Shown: positions 1,617 to 62,614 of the stretch, one piece after another
Position numbering within the stretch: position 1 is the stretch's first letter
Layout of the letters: every line of letters begins with the position of its first letter
DNA from: Allosediminivita pacifica
GTDB lineage: Bacteria > Pseudomonadota > Alphaproteobacteria > Rhodobacterales > Rhodobacteraceae
Direction of reading: 5' to 3'
DNA: 64,000 nucleotides
Assembly: GCF_003054175.1 (NCBI RefSeq)
Contig: NZ_QBKN01000012.1
Span: 62,001-126,000, forward strand
Notes under the pieces: model-generated
What the model was told of the DNA's origin: nothing
The model's input: the letters and a program-made list of their open reading frames with translations, nothing else
Databases searched by the model: none
Made by a program: the position numbers and the translations under genes

Positions 1617-3143
1617 TTGGCCGAACTCGAGATCTCTCTGATGGGGGAATTGCGCGTCTTCTCGGAGGGCGAGGAGATGCCGCTGCCGGCCTCGCGCAAG
1701 GCGCGGGCCCTGCTGGGATTCCTCGTGGCGACGGGCCGGCCGCACCGGCGGGAGAGGCTGTGCGAGCTGTTCTGGGACCTGCCCGACGATCCCAAGGCGG
1801 CGCTGCGCTGGTCGCTGTCGAAACTGCGCAAGGTGGTGGATGCGCCGGACCGGGTCTGCATCGTGTCGGATCGCGAGCGTGTGTCCTTCGCGCAGAACCG
1901 GGCGCGGGTGGACATCCACGAGATCCAGGCGGCTTTGCGGGATCGCGAGGGGCATTGCGGTTTCGAGGAGCTGGAGGAGATGGCGCGGTCGCTCGACGGG
2001 GTGATGCTCGACGGGCTGGACGGCGCCGGGGGCGAGGGGTTCTCGGCCTGGCTTACGGCAGAGCGCGAGGATGCGCAGGCCGCCTGGCTGACCGTGGTTC
2101 GGCTGCTGGCGACGCACCCGGAGGCCACGCCCGTGTCGGTCCGCAAGTGGAAGCGCATCTGGCAGGAGGCCGATCCCGAGGCCGCCGAGGCCCACGAGGA
2201 GGAGGCGGCGCGCCCGCTGCCGCCGCAGGTGCCGCGCCTGCCGGTGTCGCGTGCCCATGCGCAGCGCCCCGGCGGCGTGCGGGGTGCGCGCGGACTGCGG
2301 ACACAGCGGATCGGCTTCTGCGAGGGGCCGGACCGCACCAAGATCGCCTATGCCACGGTGGGCGAGGGGCCGCCGCTGCTCAAGGCGGCGAACTGGCTGA
2401 CGCATCTGGAGTTCGACTGGGCGGCGCCGATCTGGGGGCGCTGCTTTGCCGAGATCGCGCGGGCGCGGACGCTGATCCGCTACGACGAGCGCGGCTGCGG
2501 GCTGTCCGACTGGGACGTGGACGACCTGAGCTTCGACGCCTTCGTGGAGGATCTCGAGCTTGTGGCCGACAAGCTGGGGCTGGAGCGGTTCCCGCTGCTG
2601 GGCATTTCGCAGGGGGCGGCGGTGTCGGTGGAATACGCCGTGCGCCATCCCGAGCGGGTGTCGGGGCTGATCCTCGTGGGGGGCTACGCGGCGGGCTGGC
2701 GCCACCTTGCGAGTCCCGAGAAACAGGCGCGCCGCGAGGCGGTGCGCAACCTGACCGAGGTGGGCTGGGGCACGGACAACCCGGCCTATCGGCACATTTT
2801 CTCGCAGACCTTCATGCCGGAGGCGAGCGCCGAGGATCTCGACTGGTTCGACAATTTCCAGCGGCAGACGACCTCGGCCCGCAACGCGGCACGCTTCCAG
2901 GATGCCTTCGGCGATATCGACGTGCGGGACCGGCTGGGGCAGGTGCGGGCGCCGACCATCGTGCTGCATTCGCGCCACGACCAGCGCATCCCGGTCGAGA
3001 TGGGGCGCGACATGGCGCGGGGCATCCCGGGGGCCGAGTTCGTGCCGCTGGAAAGCCGCAACCATGTTCTGGTGGACTACGAGCCCGCCTGGCAGGTCTG
3101 TCTTCAGACGGTGGCCGATTTCCTGTCCGAGCACGGGATCTGA
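1617..3143 (+). CDS. Winged-helix regulator fused to alpha/beta hydrolase
   Basis: A two-domain protein of about 508 residues. Residues 1-100 resemble the OmpR/SARP-type winged-helix DNA-binding domain (LGELRVF-like start, RERLCELFW, then a WSLSKLRKV recognition helix). Residues 230-508 form an alpha/beta hydrolase with nucleophile elbow GISQG (Ser331), acid Asp455 in HSRHD and base His483 in ESRNH, so all three catalytic residues are kept. I chose the TTG at 1617 because GGGAGGGAAG lies just upstream; in-frame starts at 1485 and 1539 lack a good ribosome site. Such fusions are seen among SARP-like regulators, and the hydrolase may sense or process a ligand. The divergent P450 is the obvious candidate target. 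Confidence 0.82.
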   Translation: MAELEISLMGELRVFSEGEEMPLPASRKARALLGFLVATGRPHRRERLCELFWDLPDDPKAALRWSLSKLRKVVDAPDRVCIVSDRERVSFAQNRARVDIHEIQAALRDREGHCGFEELEEMARSLDGVMLDGLDGAGGEGFSAWLTAEREDAQAAWLTVVRLLATHPEATPVSVRKWKRIWQEADPEAAEAHEEEAARPLPPQVPRLPVSRAHAQRPGGVRGARGLRTQRIGFCEGPDRTKIAYATVGEGPPLLKAANWLTHLEFDWAAPIWGRCFAEIARARTLIRYDERGCGLSDWDVDDLSFDAFVEDLELVADKLGLERFPLLGISQGAAVSVEYAVRHPERVSGLILVGGYAAGWRHLASPEKQARREAVRNLTEVGWGTDNPAYRHIFSQTFMPEASAEDLDWFDNFQRQTTSARNAARFQDAFGDIDVRDRLGQVRAPTIVLHSRHDQRIPVEMGRDMARGIPGAEFVPLESRNHVLVDYEPAWQVCLQTVADFLSEHGI

Positions 3144-3252
3144 GACGACATCCCCGGCGGTTGTTTCGGCCAAGGCCCGCTCATGCGGACAGGGGCCAGT
3201 GCCCCCGTCACGGTTTCGTGGTTTCAAGCTGTCCGGTACGGTTTGAAGCGGA

Positions 3253-3825
3253 GTGGCGGTTTTGGAACTTGTCCTGGGGATCGTTATCGGTGCGGTTGTC
3301 GTCTGGGTGCGCGGGATGGTGCAGCGGACGCAAGCCCGGGTCCGGGCGCGCCAGTGGGACACGACCGATGCCGGGAACCAGCTGCGGTTCCTGGAGGATG
3401 CCGAGCTCTACCCGCGCAAGCCGATCAACAAGGAGGCCTTCCGGACGGTCTTTTCTGTGGCCGAGCGGACCCTGTCGTCGCTGCCCGGCAAGACGCGGTA
3501 CCGCCTTCTGGCCGAGGTCGCGATGGGCAGCTTCGTGGGGACCTCGGGCGGGATCGGCTCGCAGAAGGCGCAGGACCGGGCCTTTGCCTCGTTCAACAGC
3601 AAGCGGGTGGATTTCCTTGTCATCGACGCCTACGGCGAGCCGCGGCTGGTGATCGAGTACCAGGGCAGCGGCCATTACCAGAGCGACGCGGTGGCGCGCG
3701 ATGCGGTGAAGCGGCTGGCGCTGGAGCAGGCGGGCATTCCGCTGCTGGAGATCCACGAGGGGGCGACGCCCGCCGAGGTCGCGAACAAGGTGCGCTATTG
3801 GCTGGGGGAGAGCCGGAGCGGGTGA
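3253..3825 (+). CDS. DUF2726 protein, membrane-anchored, nuclease-like fold
   Basis: A 190-residue protein with one N-terminal hydrophobic segment (about residues 3-20), then a soluble domain matching DUF2726. The core pattern VDFLVID...LVIEYQG..H (about residues 117-140) resembles a PD-(D/E)xK nuclease core, followed by RDAVKRLALEQAGIPLLEI, typical of the family. The start is uncertain: GTG at 3253 opens the frame, but TTG at 3262 sits 8 bases from GGAG and may be the real start. It lies between the P450/regulator pair and the rhamnose operon and converges on rhaK. Biological role unknown. Confidence 0.75.
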   Translation: MAVLELVLGIVIGAVVVWVRGMVQRTQARVRARQWDTTDAGNQLRFLEDAELYPRKPINKEAFRTVFSVAERTLSSLPGKTRYRLLAEVAMGSFVGTSGGIGSQKAQDRAFASFNSKRVDFLVIDAYGEPRLVIEYQGSGHYQSDAVARDAVKRLALEQAGIPLLEIHEGATPAEVANKVRYWLGESRSG

Positions 3826-9138: not shown

Positions 9139-10146
9139 TCAGAAGATGTCCTTGAACTCGTCGATGTTGGACGAGTCGTAGGTGAAGGGTTCGCTCATCG
9201 CGGCGGTGTTGGTGTCGTCCAGCGTGGCGGTGCCCATGCGGCCCATGGAGATCTCGGCGCCCGGCTCGGCCTCGGCCTGGTCGGTGGCGAGGTTGTAGGC
9301 GAGCATGGCGGTGGAGTAGCCCAGATCGACCGGGTTCCAGATCGCGAAGGACTTGGACGCGCCGGATTCGACGGCACCGGCCATCTCGGACGGCAGGCCG
9401 AGGCCGGTCACGTTGACTTCACCCACCTTGCCGGCGTCCTGCACCGCCTGCGCGGCGGCCACGATGCCCACCGAGGTCGGCGCGATGATCGCGTCGAGGT
9501 CGGGGTAGGTCTGCAGGAGACCCTGCGTTTCGCGGTAGGACTTGTCGGCGAGGTCGTCGCCGTAGACCGTCGCGACCAGCTCGATGTCGGGATACTGGTC
9601 CATCACCGACTTCATTTCCTCGATCCAGGTGTTCTGGTTGGTCGAGGTGGAGGTGGCCGAGAGCACGGCGACCTTGCCGCCATCGGGCAGTTGGTCGGCG
9701 GCGAGCTTGATGATCGTCTGGCCGATCAGCTCGTCCGACGACGGCGCGAGGTGCATTTCGCGGCCCTCGGGGGCGACACCCGAATCCCAGGAAATCACGG
9801 TGATGCCGCGCTGCATGGCCTTCTGCAGGGCAGGGACCACGGCGTCGGGGTCGTTGGCCGAGATCGCGATGGCGTCGACGCGCTGGGCGATCAGGCTGTT
9901 GATGACCTCGATCTGGCCCTCGGCGGTGGTGCTGGTGGGGCCGGTATAGATGATCTCGGCGTTGCCGACTTCCTCGGCGGCTTCCTCTGCGCCGCGGGCT
10001 GCGGCCTCGAAGAAGCCGTTGCCGAGCGACTTGGCGACCAGAGCGATGCGCACGTTGTCCTGTGCGAGCGCGGTGCTGCCCATGAGGCTTGCCGCCATGC
10101 CGGCGGCGACGCCGGTTGCGATTGCGAAACGTCTCGTGAAGCTCAT
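9139..10146 (-). CDS. rhaS: Rhamnose-binding periplasmic protein
   Basis: A 335-residue substrate-binding protein of the RbsB-like Peripla_BP_4 family. A signal peptide is evident (RRFAIATGVAAGMAASLMG, likely cleavage near ALAQ-DN), followed by IALVAKSLGNGFFEAAARGA, the standard first strand. It delivers L-rhamnose to RhaPQ. GGGAGGACATC precedes the ATG. It lies 27 bases downstream of rhaR. The name follows rhizobial usage and is not the E. coli RhaS activator. Confidence 0.93.
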   Translation of the reverse strand: MSFTRRFAIATGVAAGMAASLMGSTALAQDNVRIALVAKSLGNGFFEAAARGAEEAAEEVGNAEIIYTGPTSTTAEGQIEVINSLIAQRVDAIAISANDPDAVVPALQKAMQRGITVISWDSGVAPEGREMHLAPSSDELIGQTIIKLAADQLPDGGKVAVLSATSTSTNQNTWIEEMKSVMDQYPDIELVATVYGDDLADKSYRETQGLLQTYPDLDAIIAPTSVGIVAAAQAVQDAGKVGEVNVTGLGLPSEMAGAVESGASKSFAIWNPVDLGYSTAMLAYNLATDQAEAEPGAEISMGRMGTATLDDTNTAAMSEPFTYDSSNIDEFKDIF

Positions 10147-58889: not shown

Positions 58890-59591
58890 TTAGGGCGATA
58901 GGTGACTCCATCGCCTGATGAAATCAGCAGAATCCGTTTCAACGCCCCTCAGTTCTAGTTCTAGAGTTACGAGGGGCCCGCTCAAACGGCGAAGCATCTG
59001 ACGCCGGCTTTCACCCGTTTCAGCATCTTCATTCGAGACCTGACGAACCGTGGCCACGGCCGATATCCAGCTCTCCAGCGCCGCCTCGAAGCTACCAAAT
59101 GCGGGGCGACGCCCTTGAGTATCGTACACGTTTTCCGTCAAACGCGTTTCGATTATCTGCTTCCTAGTTTCTTCAGCGACATGCGAGAAGGACTCCAGTT
59201 CTCCGTCGACTAGCTCTTCGTCTCGGTTCACTGTAGAATCCAGTAGCTGTACGACATTCCCGTGTGCGACACTTGCTGCACTCTGCACTTGCTGAGCTTG
59301 GACCAAGGCACCGTGTACCTGAAATTTCATCATTTCTAGGTGCTGGTCTGAGGCTGTTGAGATTTGACGGGATATCATCGAGACCGAGATTACGGCAGCA
59401 GCGAGCGCTGCCAGCGCACCCGCGTATCCACCAAACGCTGAAAGCCATTCTCTCAGGTCCCGCGATATTCCAGGTGCCGCTAAGGCAACTTTCGGATCAA
59501 CCAGAAGCTTGAGAGAAAGGAGGTAGATCATCAAAAAGGCGACGATCAAAATCAGGCAGGTGCAAATCCAGAATACCGACGCGTTGGACAA
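58890..59591 (-). CDS. Hypothetical membrane protein, AT-richer
   Basis: I do not recognise this 233-residue protein. Two hydrophobic helices lie at about residues 7-30 and 48-72, followed by a mostly helical soluble part rich in Gln, Glu and Ser that may form a coiled coil. The start is TTG 59591 with GGGAGGAAAAT at good spacing, so the gene looks genuinely translated. Its codons and DNA are clearly less GC-rich than the surroundings, which hints at horizontal acquisition. It stands alone between the polyol cluster and a repeat. Two inverted repeats lie upstream (59627-59663). Confidence 0.65.
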   Translation of the reverse strand: MSNASVFWICTCLILIVAFLMIYLLSLKLLVDPKVALAAPGISRDLREWLSAFGGYAGALAALAAAVISVSMISRQISTASDQHLEMMKFQVHGALVQAQQVQSAASVAHGNVVQLLDSTVNRDEELVDGELESFSHVAEETRKQIIETRLTENVYDTQGRRPAFGSFEAALESWISAVATVRQVSNEDAETGESRRQMLRRLSGPLVTLELELRGVETDSADFIRRWSHLSP

Positions 59592-59925
59592 ATTTTCCTC
59601 CCGCTTTTAATTCGCAATTTAATGATGTGACCACCCAGAGGTCACGCAGAGTAACCTTACTCTTTGGGCATCACCACGAGAAACTCGCCTTGAAGTGAGC
59701 GCGTTGCCCCAGTTGCGCGATGCGTTCGGGCGGGCATCCGAAGGGCGGAGGCAAGCTGGGACCAGCCAAGTCATGCGCCGGGTCCACATGTCCGCATAAG
59801 GCCGGGATCGGGCATGCCTCGTACCAAGCTTGAGCGTCGACTAAGGCCCGTCGTAGGTCATCTGTCGAGTCTGAGACGAAGGTCTGCACCGGATTCCAAG
59901 CGATCGGTTAAACGCGAAGCCCCGG
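59592..59925. other. Gene-poor AT-richer gap with two inverted repeats
   Basis: GTGACC-N7-GGTCAC (59627-59645) and AGAGTAA-CC-TTACTCT (59648-59663) lie 36-72 bases upstream of the membrane-protein start and look like operators for it. A 72-codon minus-strand frame starting with GTG at 59889 has no recognisable domain and could be a gene remnant; I do not call it. Confidence 0.4.
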
Positions 59926-60095
59926 CGCGGAATCAAGGCACGCAGTGCCGCCGCGCATCGCAGCCGCGCCCCCAAGCGGCGGCGATTTGGTGACGCTGAG
60001 TGCCTCGTGTCGAAGTCGTCCTGACCTTGCGAGCATAAACCAAGAGGATCCGCTGTCCGGATCGCCACCGCGCGCGGCCGCCATGCGCGGCTCTG
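59926..60095 (+). repeat. Direct repeat, left copy, flanking the amidase pair
   Basis: This 170-base block shares ordered segments with 62422-62614 in the same orientation: CGCGGAATCAAGGC / CGCGGGATCAAGGC, GCGGCGGCGATTTGGT (identical), CTCGTGTCGAAGTC / CGTCGTGTCGAGGTC, ATCGCCACC (identical) and ATGCGCGGCTCTG (identical). The right copy carries about 23 extra bases. No coding function is evident. The 168 bases from here to the next gene hold no other feature apart from its ribosome site. Confidence 0.7.
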
Positions 60096-60263
60096 AACCG
60101 GGATCCTTCCGTGAGCTTAGTCCGCAGTGCTGACTGGCTTCGGCAGCCGGTCAAAACCCGGGCGCATGGCCTCTCGCGACGTCGCCTGCGCTCCACCCCC
60201 TCTGGATTTCCTCGCCCGCCCCTCGCAGTATCCGTCCAAACACCGGACACGAAGGAGCCTGTC

Positions 60264-61427
60264 ATGCCTATCCGCAACCGTCTTGCCGAGATGCACGAGG
60301 AGATCACCGGGTGGCGCCGGGATCTGCATCGGATGCCGGAGCTGCTTTACGAGACGCACAGGACCGCCGCCTTCGTGGCCGAGAAGCTGCGGGAGTTCGG
60401 CTGTGACGAGGTGGTGGAAGGTATCGGGCGCACGGGGGTCGTGGGGCTCATCAAGGGCAGGGCCGAGGGCCGGACGGTGGGGCTTCGGGCGGACATGGAC
60501 GCGCTGCCGATCCACGAGGCGACCGGCAAGCCCTATGCCTCGGAAACGCCGGGTGTCATGCATGCCTGTGGCCACGACGGGCATACGGCGATGCTGCTGG
60601 GGGCTGCCAAGTACCTGGCGGAGAGCCGGAATTTCGCGGGCAGCGTCGCGGTGATCTTTCAGCCCGCCGAGGAGGGCGGTGGCGGTGGCGATGCCATGGT
60701 CAAGGACGGCATGATGGAGCGCTTCGACATCGCCGAGGTCTACGGGATGCACAACGCGCCGGGCAAGCCGGTGGGGAGTTTCTCGATCAACCCCGGGCCG
60801 ATGTACGCGGCGGTGGATACCTTCGACATCACGGTCAAGGGGCGTGGCGGGCACGCGGCGCGGCCGCACGAGTGCATCGACCCGACGCTGGCGGCCTCGG
60901 GCATCGTGATGAGCCTGCAGAGCATGGTGTCGCGCAGCGCCGATCCGCTGAAGTCGCTGGTGGTGTCGGTGTGCAGCTTTCGCACGGCGACGGATGCCTA
61001 CAACGTGATCCCCGAGACGGTGACGCTGCGCGGCACGGTGCGGAGTTTCGATCCGGAGCTGCGCAAGCTGACCGAGGGGCGGATCCGCGAGATCGTGTCG
61101 AACGGGGCGGCGGTCTACGGGGCGGAGGCGGTGATCGAGTATCACAACGGCTATCCGGCGACGGTGAACTACGCCGAGGAGGCGGGATTCGCGGCGGAGG
61201 CGGCCAAACGGATCACCCCTGAGGTGGAGACGGACAGCCCGCCGCTGATGGCGGGCGAGGATTTCGCCTACATGCTGCTGGCGCGGCGGGGGGCCTATAT
61301 CCAGGTCGGCAACGGCGGGGGCGCGAGCGTTCACCACCCGGAGTACGATTTCAACGACGAGGCGATCCCGGCGGGCTGTTCCTACTGGGTGGAACTGGTG
61401 GAGAGCCGGCTGCCGGTGGGGGCATGA
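60264..61427 (+). CDS. M20-family amidohydrolase (hippurate-hydrolase-like)
   Basis: A 387-residue cytoplasmic metallopeptidase that hydrolyses N-acyl or amide bonds of amino-acid conjugates. The M20 marks are RADMDALPI, HACGHDGHT (metal ligands near residue 100), PAEEGGGGG (catalytic glutamate near 135), GRGGHAARPHE in the lid domain and MAGEDFAYM near the end. AAGGAGCC precedes ATG 60264; the longer frame upstream runs through the repeat and is not used. It overlaps the acetamidase gene by ATGA, so the two enzymes are co-translated. Confidence 0.92.
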   Translation: MPIRNRLAEMHEEITGWRRDLHRMPELLYETHRTAAFVAEKLREFGCDEVVEGIGRTGVVGLIKGRAEGRTVGLRADMDALPIHEATGKPYASETPGVMHACGHDGHTAMLLGAAKYLAESRNFAGSVAVIFQPAEEGGGGGDAMVKDGMMERFDIAEVYGMHNAPGKPVGSFSINPGPMYAAVDTFDITVKGRGGHAARPHECIDPTLAASGIVMSLQSMVSRSADPLKSLVVSVCSFRTATDAYNVIPETVTLRGTVRSFDPELRKLTEGRIREIVSNGAAVYGAEAVIEYHNGYPATVNYAEEAGFAAEAAKRITPEVETDSPPLMAGEDFAYMLLARRGAYIQVGNGGGASVHHPEYDFNDEAIPAGCSYWVELVESRLPVGA

Positions 61428-62362
61428 GCGCGTACCTGGCGGCGGGCGCGGAGAGCTGCGCCTGGGGGTTCTTCGACGCGGCGCGGGCCCCGGTGCTGGA
61501 GGTGGGCAGCGGCGATGTCGTGGTGATCGACACGGTCTCGGGGGCGCCGGAGGTGCTGCCGCCCGCGGGGTTCCACGTGCCTCCGGAGCTTTACGATGTG
61601 CATGCGCGGGCCGAGCGGGCCATGGGCGGGCATATCGTGACGGGGCCGGTGGCGGTGCGCGGGGCGCGGCAGGGGGACGTGCTGCAGGTGGATATCCTCG
61701 ACGTGGCGCTGCGGCAGGACTGGGGGTACAATGTGATCCGCCCGCTGGCGGGGACGCTGCGCGAGGAGTTCGACGAGGGCCGCTGCGTGACCATTCCGCT
61801 GGATGCTGAGGCGGGTGTGGCGCGGCTGTCCTGGGGGCTGGAGCTGCCATTGCGGCCCTTCTTCGGGGTGATGGCCGTGGCGCCGCCTGCGAGCTGGGGG
61901 CGCGTGTCGACGATCCAGCCGCGACGGTTCGGCGGCAATCTCGACAACAAGGAGCTGGTGGCGGGCAGTACGCTGTTCCTGCCGGTGCAGGCGGAGGGCG
62001 CGCTGTTTTCCTGCGGTGACGGACACGGGGCGCAGGGCGATGGCGAGGTCTGCATCACCGCGATCGAGACGGCGCTGCGCGGGACCTTCCGCCTGACGGT
62101 GCGGAGCGATCTGCCTTGGGCGTATCCCAGGGCCGAGACGCCGGGGCACCTGATCACGATGGGGATGCATCCCTCGCTCGACATCTGCGCCGAGATGGCA
62201 CTGCGGGACATGATCGGCTGGATCGTGGATCTGACGGGGCTGAGCCGGGAGGACGCCTACATGCTCTGTTCTCTGGCGGGGGATCTGCGGGTGACGCAGA
62301 CGGTGAACGGCAACAAGGGCGTGCACATGATGATGGCCAAGGAGCTGGTGGGGCAGGCGTAG
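61424..62362 (+). CDS. Acetamidase/formamidase family protein
   Basis: A 312-residue FmdA/AmdA-type amidase that releases ammonia from short amides. It shows DILDVALRQDWGYNV, RRFGGNLDNKELVAGSTLFLPV, LFSCGDGHGAQGDGEVC and ITMGMHPSL, the conserved order in this family. The M20 enzyme followed by an amidase suggests stepwise breakdown of an N-acyl or amide nitrogen source. A gene-free 348-base stretch with a repeat and a terminator follows. Confidence 0.88.
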   Translation: MSAYLAAGAESCAWGFFDAARAPVLEVGSGDVVVIDTVSGAPEVLPPAGFHVPPELYDVHARAERAMGGHIVTGPVAVRGARQGDVLQVDILDVALRQDWGYNVIRPLAGTLREEFDEGRCVTIPLDAEAGVARLSWGLELPLRPFFGVMAVAPPASWGRVSTIQPRRFGGNLDNKELVAGSTLFLPVQAEGALFSCGDGHGAQGDGEVCITAIETALRGTFRLTVRSDLPWAYPRAETPGHLITMGMHPSLDICAEMALRDMIGWIVDLTGLSREDAYMLCSLAGDLRVTQTVNGNKGVHMMMAKELVGQA

Positions 62363-62421
62363 GCCGCTCGCCCGACGGGGCTGACGCCCCTCGTTCCGGG
62401 CGGGAGAGCGCGGAGTCCCTG

Positions 62422-62614
62422 CGCGGGATCAAGGCTGAAGGCCGCCGCGCAATGTCATGCTGGAAGCATGCCTCCGGAATGACCGCGTCCCCACGCGGCG
62501 GCGATTTGGTTAAGCTGGGTGCGTCGTGTCGAGGTCTTTTGGACTTGGCTGCCATGAAGCGAGATGATCATCGGTCGGGATCGCCACCACGCGCGGCTGC
62601 GATGCGCGGCTCTG
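62422..62614 (+). repeat. Direct repeat, right copy, flanking the amidase pair
   Basis: Second copy of the element at 59926-60095, same orientation, 193 bases including an internal insertion around 62450-62480 (GCATGCCTCCGGAATG). The longest exact shared runs are GCGGCGGCGATTTGGT and ATGCGCGGCTCTG. The two copies bracket the two-gene amidase operon, a pattern expected of a gene cassette moved or duplicated between repeats. Confidence 0.7.

Follow-up and report, generated by a model that had tools for sequence, protein, structure and literature searches.

Two copies of a dispersed palindromic element, probably independent insertions, flank an amidase gene pair in Allosediminivita pacifica

In a 64,000-nucleotide stretch of the Allosediminivita pacifica genome (contig NZ_QBKN01000012.1, positions 62,001 to 126,000; hereafter, the window), two copies of a repeat lie in the same orientation on either side of a pair of amidase genes. 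The question raised by this locus is whether the repeats carried the pair there, as a first-pass annotation had proposed, or whether the pair was already resident when two copies of a mobile sequence settled beside it. The features to which the text refers are as follows, in window coordinates.

58890-59591, minus strand: orphan gene, 233 aa, AT-richer, no family match; neighbour of the repeats
59925-60094, plus strand: copy A, full-length; its subtype lacks the extra hairpin; upstream of the M20 gene, with the orphan gene on the other side
59925-59956, plus strand: H1, the 5' hairpin of copy A (GCGCGG...CCGCGC), together with GAATC
59957-59968, plus strand: left outer arm of copy A, partner of 60073-60084
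59975-59986, plus strand: left inner arm of copy A, partner of 60061-60072 and, locally, also of 59957-59968
59987-60060, plus strand: 74-bp spacer (apical loop) of copy A, containing ATAAA (from alignment to the model)
60061-60072, plus strand: right inner arm of copy A
60073-60084, plus strand: right outer arm of copy A
60264-61427, plus strand: M20 family amidohydrolase gene, 387 aa (Pfam PF01546, 5.8e-46; TIGR01891 above cut-off); host gene, outside the element
61424-62362, plus strand: acetamidase/formamidase family gene, 312 aa (Pfam PF03069, 2.7e-31), overlapping the M20 gene by ATGA; host gene
62421-62613, plus strand: copy B, of the subtype with an extra left-arm hairpin; the acetamidase and aldehyde dehydrogenase genes converge on it
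62453-62482, plus strand: extra nested hairpin of copy B, CGTC-REP-like, reading TGTC, then ATGCTGGAAGCATGCCTCCGGAAT, then GA (compared with section 6 of PMC3733652)
62711-64000, minus strand: aldehyde dehydrogenase family gene, truncated where the window ends; neighbour, convergent with the acetamidase gene

To describe the repeats, we compared the copies with each other and with a covariance model drawn from 27 genera, mostly non-host. Positions 59964-60095 and 62483-62614 align as direct repeats over 132 ungapped bases that are 80% identical. The model recovered copy A at full length (59925-60094, 170 bp, E 3.8e-24) and copy B at 62447-62613 (E 1.1e-14); we set the true start of copy B at 62421, because its extra hairpin is absent from the model. 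These results agree with the initial description of two diverged copies of 170-193 bp, A being 170 bp and B 193 bp long, and of an element that codes for nothing obvious. Coding content was rejected by inspection of the alignment, in which open frames across the copies share no frame. A segmental duplication of the flanks was also rejected, as similarity ends near the element boundaries.

The flanked genes were likewise much as first described: the ATGA overlap bears out a translationally coupled pair, and the gene to the left of copy A is AT-richer (53% GC, against 67% for the window). This orphan gene gave no Pfam or NCBIfam match, and its product has a hydrophobic N-terminus. What did not hold up was the proposal that the pair was gained or duplicated through the repeats. 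A cassette gained, or excisable, by recombination between copies A and B would be consistent with their direct orientation and close spacing, and with a single case in another species, described below, in which flanking modules were exchanged inside the element. However, A and B are of different subtypes, their 78% identity ranks 173rd among 210 pairs, and each is nearer to copies elsewhere than to the other, so they are not the near-identical flanking copies of common origin that define a composite transposon or cassette. The longest exact match between them is 16 bp, which is short for homologous recombination. Codon use and GC content of the pair match those of the host (GC3 of 0.89-0.90). 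A close acetamidase orthologue was found in 28 of 295 family genomes, A. pacifica included, and in two of the other 27, both from other genera (G250 and G063), it lies next to the M20 gene, at 64% identity; no element was found in the 16-17 kb around the amidase pair of these two genomes, and none within about 6 kb. Finally, the proximity of A and B is not unusual, because at least one pair fell within 2.6 kb in 18% of simulations that placed 20 uniformly random sites in 4.85 Mb. Altogether, we regard the cassette as very improbable; the simplest account is a resident host operon flanked by two separate insertions.

The suggestion that the repeat might belong to a dispersed family, and that further copies should be sought, proved correct. 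A profile search of the A. pacifica genome (4.85 Mb, 98 contigs) identified at least 24 distinct copies, while searches with copy A or copy B returned 67 and 59 rows, respectively, at E up to 10 with half-matches counted. Both subtypes, with and without the extra hairpin, occur among the copies of this genome, and there are two tandem arrays, one of four units about 247 bp apart (L354, contig C6, 7942-8865) and one of three units about 135 bp apart (L355, contig C24, 82242-82684). Seven more places in the genome (L339-L345, at C2:191613, C4:35491, C14:10603, C1:175897, C3:229349, C4:61020 and C4:80652) carry the spacer core AGGTCATTCGGACTTNGCNGGNATAAA with up to 3 mismatches. Several of them lie within some hundreds of bases of full-length copies, and it looks as though this core also serves a second, related element family.

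We determined the distribution of the element with several searches of differing stringency. With one A. pacifica copy as query (E 1e-4) and two candidates scored per genome, it was detected in 62 of 295 Rhodobacteraceae genomes, each representing one genus. Profile matches were present in 14 of 16 chosen genomes, with counts that include 36 copies in G088, 85 in G072 and at least 142 in G126, for which 150 candidates were scored. A class-wide search with the structural model, under strict filters and with seven candidates scored per genome, matched two of 385 genomes, both Rhodobacteraceae, and no class genome outside that family. A core-pattern scan of named genomes yielded at least 118 stretches; among the matches listed are Salipiger, Mesobacterium, Roseivivax, Nioella and metagenome-assembled genomes assigned to Rhodobacter, Rhodobacteraceae or Paracoccaceae. 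Searches of 72,556 plasmid records gave 4 and 96 matching records, all from Rhodobacterales genera and confined to Salipiger, Pseudosulfitobacter, Sulfitobacter and Roseinatronobacter, and none of 50,697 phage records matched the element.

The copies follow one plan, seen in 28 aligned copies from 27 genera (alignment A3): the H1 hairpin, ATCGCC-v1, a short C-rich link, v2-GGCGAT, the spacer, ATCGCC-v3, v4-GGCGAT and GCGCGG, with v1 and v4, and v2 and v3, as long-range partners. The alignment leaves out L087, in which the script found no right arm, the partial L091, the type B copies L013, L093, L131, L132, L139 and L144, and second copies from a genome already represented (L134, L135, L138 and L148). 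All 28 copies keep a spacer of 71-75 nt, even though the spacer columns are just 55% alike, and the ATAAA within it is nearly invariant. GANTC occurs in H1 of about half of the copies (15 of 28 across genera and 13 of 21 in A. pacifica) and was dropped as a defining site. In G126 (L135, L145, L156 and L159-L195), the palindrome extends outward, with TTTTGGCCTGGAGCGGACGTT ends followed in many copies by CTAGAGCGCGATGCG.

The variable arm segments change in step. In the long-range arms, 91.5% of 839 cells are paired, and 64 cells carry double changes, compared to 21.1 in shuffled alignments (none of 500 shuffles as high). Since the shuffles do not keep relatedness, we give more weight to slid versions of the arms, which produced only 2-8 double-change cells, and to the range of base pairs seen: where v1 and v4 vary most, there are A-T 13, G-C 13 and C-G 1 at one position, C-G 19 and G-C 8 at another, and G-C 16 and C-G 12 at a third. 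G-T pairs occupy only five of the 839 arm cells. Local pairing of the left arms is supported as well (93.8% paired with H1 included, 22 double-change cells); columns 42-59 are persistently mismatched (17 of 28 unpaired). Because both the long-range and the local pairing are supported, the four strands can fold as two separate hairpins or as a single long one, as is expected of a head-to-head pair of palindromes.

We also examined where the copies sit relative to genes, which were called with a simple codon-based script. Of the at least 142 copies in G126, 40 were fetched and 38 assigned (two loci were left out): 23 lie between convergent genes, 15 between co-directional genes and none between divergent genes. 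In A. pacifica, where seven of the 24 loci examined were left out as array members or contig ends, the corresponding numbers are 10, 5 and 2 among 17. The script's gene overlapping the element was set aside at locus L005; at L001 the script chose a doubtful minus-strand gene, but the orphan gene, which lies nearer, has the same strand. Baseline gene pairs in 60 kb of G126 comprised 12 convergent, 29 co-directional and 12 divergent of 53, and relative to an assumed 25% the convergent excess has P = 4e-6 in G126 and 0.003 in A. pacifica. Six plasmid sites with published annotation showed the same 3'-end bias (4 convergent, 2 co-directional, 0 divergent). Thus, copies of the element sit at the 3' ends of genes, mostly between convergent genes, and copy A, with its divergent neighbours, is an exception. 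The 15 co-directional sites of G126 show no preferred orientation (8 against 7); the five in A. pacifica all share one orientation, which, as a small count, runs against free orientation.

Paired arm changes and placement at gene 3' ends are both compatible with a dispersed structured RNA, such as a 3' UTR element or an sRNA family, whose fold is selected as RNA. Several observations speak against this reading, which we consider improbable, namely the scarcity of G-T pairs, the even orientation relative to co-directional genes in G126, an RNA fold of copy B that is no better than those of shuffled sequences (z 0.76), and the lack of any Rfam match at gathering score within the window. Two weak matches to Rfam families in the region were rejected as chance-level. 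Because G-T pairs are rare and orientation is free, we propose instead that the element acts as DNA.

Evidence on movement came from related genomes and plasmids. G126 and its congener G295 both carry many copies, and four elements lie in a 19.9-kb stretch of G126. At one of these (9532-9781, between two gene ends), G295 has about 80 bp in place of about 345 bp and the element is absent; no target-site duplication was visible there, and none could be read because the compared sequences are only about 82% alike. Synteny with G295 is lost at a second G126 element, between 15432 and 15814. Near 9500 (L206), the upstream gene seems to take its stop codon from the element. On plasmid P5 of Pseudosulfitobacter pseudonitzschiae SC33-17, one worked case of four plasmid sites searched, the left flank is shared with strain H46 (97.5% identity up to 3176 of L371) and the right flank with strain SM26-46 (92.7% from 3081 of L371); with the element at 3093-3323, the exchange point falls inside the element or at its edge. 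In H46, the junction retains a truncated element, with a second one beside it. On plasmid CP069022.1 (L365:2750-2941), the element is adjoined by an unannotated repeat of another kind, about 190 bp long, which recurs on many Pseudosulfitobacter plasmids with about 89% identity.

To find a mobiliser, we looked for the REP transposase domain PF01797 (Y1_Tnp) and for copies enclosing a gene. The A. pacifica genome has no such domain, and so does not qualify as carrying a REPtron; two of 14 genomes were positive and nine element-bearing ones negative. G126, the richest in copies, has one Y1_Tnp gene (L346, C54:28238-28594), and the other copy-rich genomes tested have none. A half-element search of the fetched loci, overlapping ones included, gave 399 left halves, with the right half at most 120 bp away in 365, farther away in 10 and missing in 24. 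Nine of the ten distant halves are 125-185 bp apart; the tenth pair, 1,034 bp apart, looks like two nearby elements. None of the 399 matches held a coding insert, and no autonomous parent element emerged from this search. As neither a transposase nor a copy with a coding insert was found, the spread of the element is something that we infer.

These data bear on the alternative that the element is a classical MITE, i.e., a deletion derivative of a cut-and-paste transposon, whose terminal inverted repeats are recognised by a DDE transposase that leaves target-site duplications. Terminal inverted repeats, a conserved interior, high copy number and the one empty syntenic site are features that a MITE would share, and MITEs and the Tn3-derived TIMEs of Paracoccus and Pseudomonas, as far as the accounts consulted describe them, are similarly short, non-coding, dispersed sequences with inverted repeats. 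Nevertheless, no transposon with matching ends was found and no half-element match enclosed a coding insert; the ends vary between genera and between copies; and the arms covary between genera in place of a fixed terminal sequence, a pattern not expected of a fixed transposase site. The target-site duplication expected of a MITE was not visible, at a site too diverged to exclude one. A MITE origin is therefore possible but, in our judgement, rather unlikely.

The arrangement more closely resembles REP sequences. According to the text of PMC3733652, CGTC REPs predominate in alphaproteobacteria, covering all orders, and have no linked transposase; they form head-to-head dimers with AT-starting stems between convergent or co-directional genes, and in most GTAG and CGTC dimers (BIMEs) conserved spacers measure 20-100 bp. 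Like the dimers described there, our element is palindromic and intergenic, has a head-to-head layout, a conserved spacer and AT at the first stem positions, and lies between convergent or co-directional genes. Unlike them, it has a stem of 12 bp rather than 8-9 bp, an added 5' hairpin, hardly any G-T pairs and a spacer of 71-75 nt in every genus aligned; it bears neither a CGTC nor a GTAG tag, with GCGC, part of H1, in their place. In nearly all rows of alignment A3 it is GCGC, not CGTC (or TGTC or CCTC), that precedes ATCGCC, and the 12-bp arms enclose a local loop of about 5-7 nt and are followed by TTTGG, compared to a loop of 4-5 nt and a CCA tail in CGTC REPs. The extra hairpin of copy B does have a tag followed by an AT-starting stem (TGTCATGC in the window), and in most type B copies it is CGTC-tagged (CGTCATGC). 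Its stem of about 10 bp and its GAC tail differ from the 8-9 bp and CCA of that class, so we call it CGTC-like only; its sequence suggests a CGTC-type REP nested in the element, with a lengthened stem. The missing CGTC tag, longer stems and added hairpin keep us from filing the main element as a CGTC REP, while in the broader sense of a BIME it has two inverted palindromic units, a spacer within 20-100 bp and, copy A in its divergent setting excepted, convergent or co-directional placement. It is probably a Rhodobacteraceae head-to-head REP dimer, BIME-like, and an addition to this known class of repeats. The family was undescribed in the literature searched, and the main text of PMC3733652, figures aside, contains no Rhodobacter, Roseo- or Ruegeria; it may already be listed in the figures of that paper.

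A further candidate relative is the CIR element of Caulobacter. Chen and Shapiro in 2003 reportedly described long intergenic repeats with an inverted-repeat layout and GANTC in one repeat. CIR elements are strictly intergenic in the account given by a review (PMC10969869). The likeness lies in the long alphaproteobacterial intergenic inverted-repeat layout, as described, and perhaps in GANTC. On the other side, only about half of our copies have GANTC in H1, and the class-wide search placed the element model in no genome outside Rhodobacteraceae.

Altogether, we consider it likely that copies A and B arose by separate insertions of one palindromic element dispersed across Rhodobacteraceae, built of head-to-head REP-like hairpins and acting as DNA. 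In this model, outer arms (ATCGCC-N6 and N6-GGCGAT) and inner arms (N6-GGCGAT and ATCGCC-N6) would form a REP-like pair around a spacer of fixed length, with H1 as a third hairpin on its 5' side. A trans-acting enzyme would copy or transpose the element, insertions that leave genes joined to their promoters would be tolerated, and the element may occasionally serve as a rearrangement junction; the amidase pair would simply happen to lie between two insertions. A bolder version, which we offer tentatively and think unlikely to hold in full, is that of a mobile palindrome selected as DNA, in which covarying double arms 71-75 bp apart (about seven helical turns) and the ATAAA core are read as one structure by a host or transposition protein, and which spreads without a REP transposase and marks the points where chromosomes and plasmids of Rhodobacteraceae preferentially exchange modules.

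The Rhodobacteraceae, i.e., the roseobacters and their relatives, are major marine bacteria, and a repeat that reaches more than 140 copies in one genome and occurs in no fewer than 62 of the 295 genera sampled affects genome assembly, the structure of gene 3' ends and rearrangement. The element is notable because it is widespread, occurs in many copies and keeps a fixed geometry, and because its enzyme is missing. That G-T pairs are nearly absent offers a handle on whether selection acts at the level of DNA or RNA, and with CGTC REPs the element shares the question of how palindromic repeats spread through genomes that contain no REP transposase.
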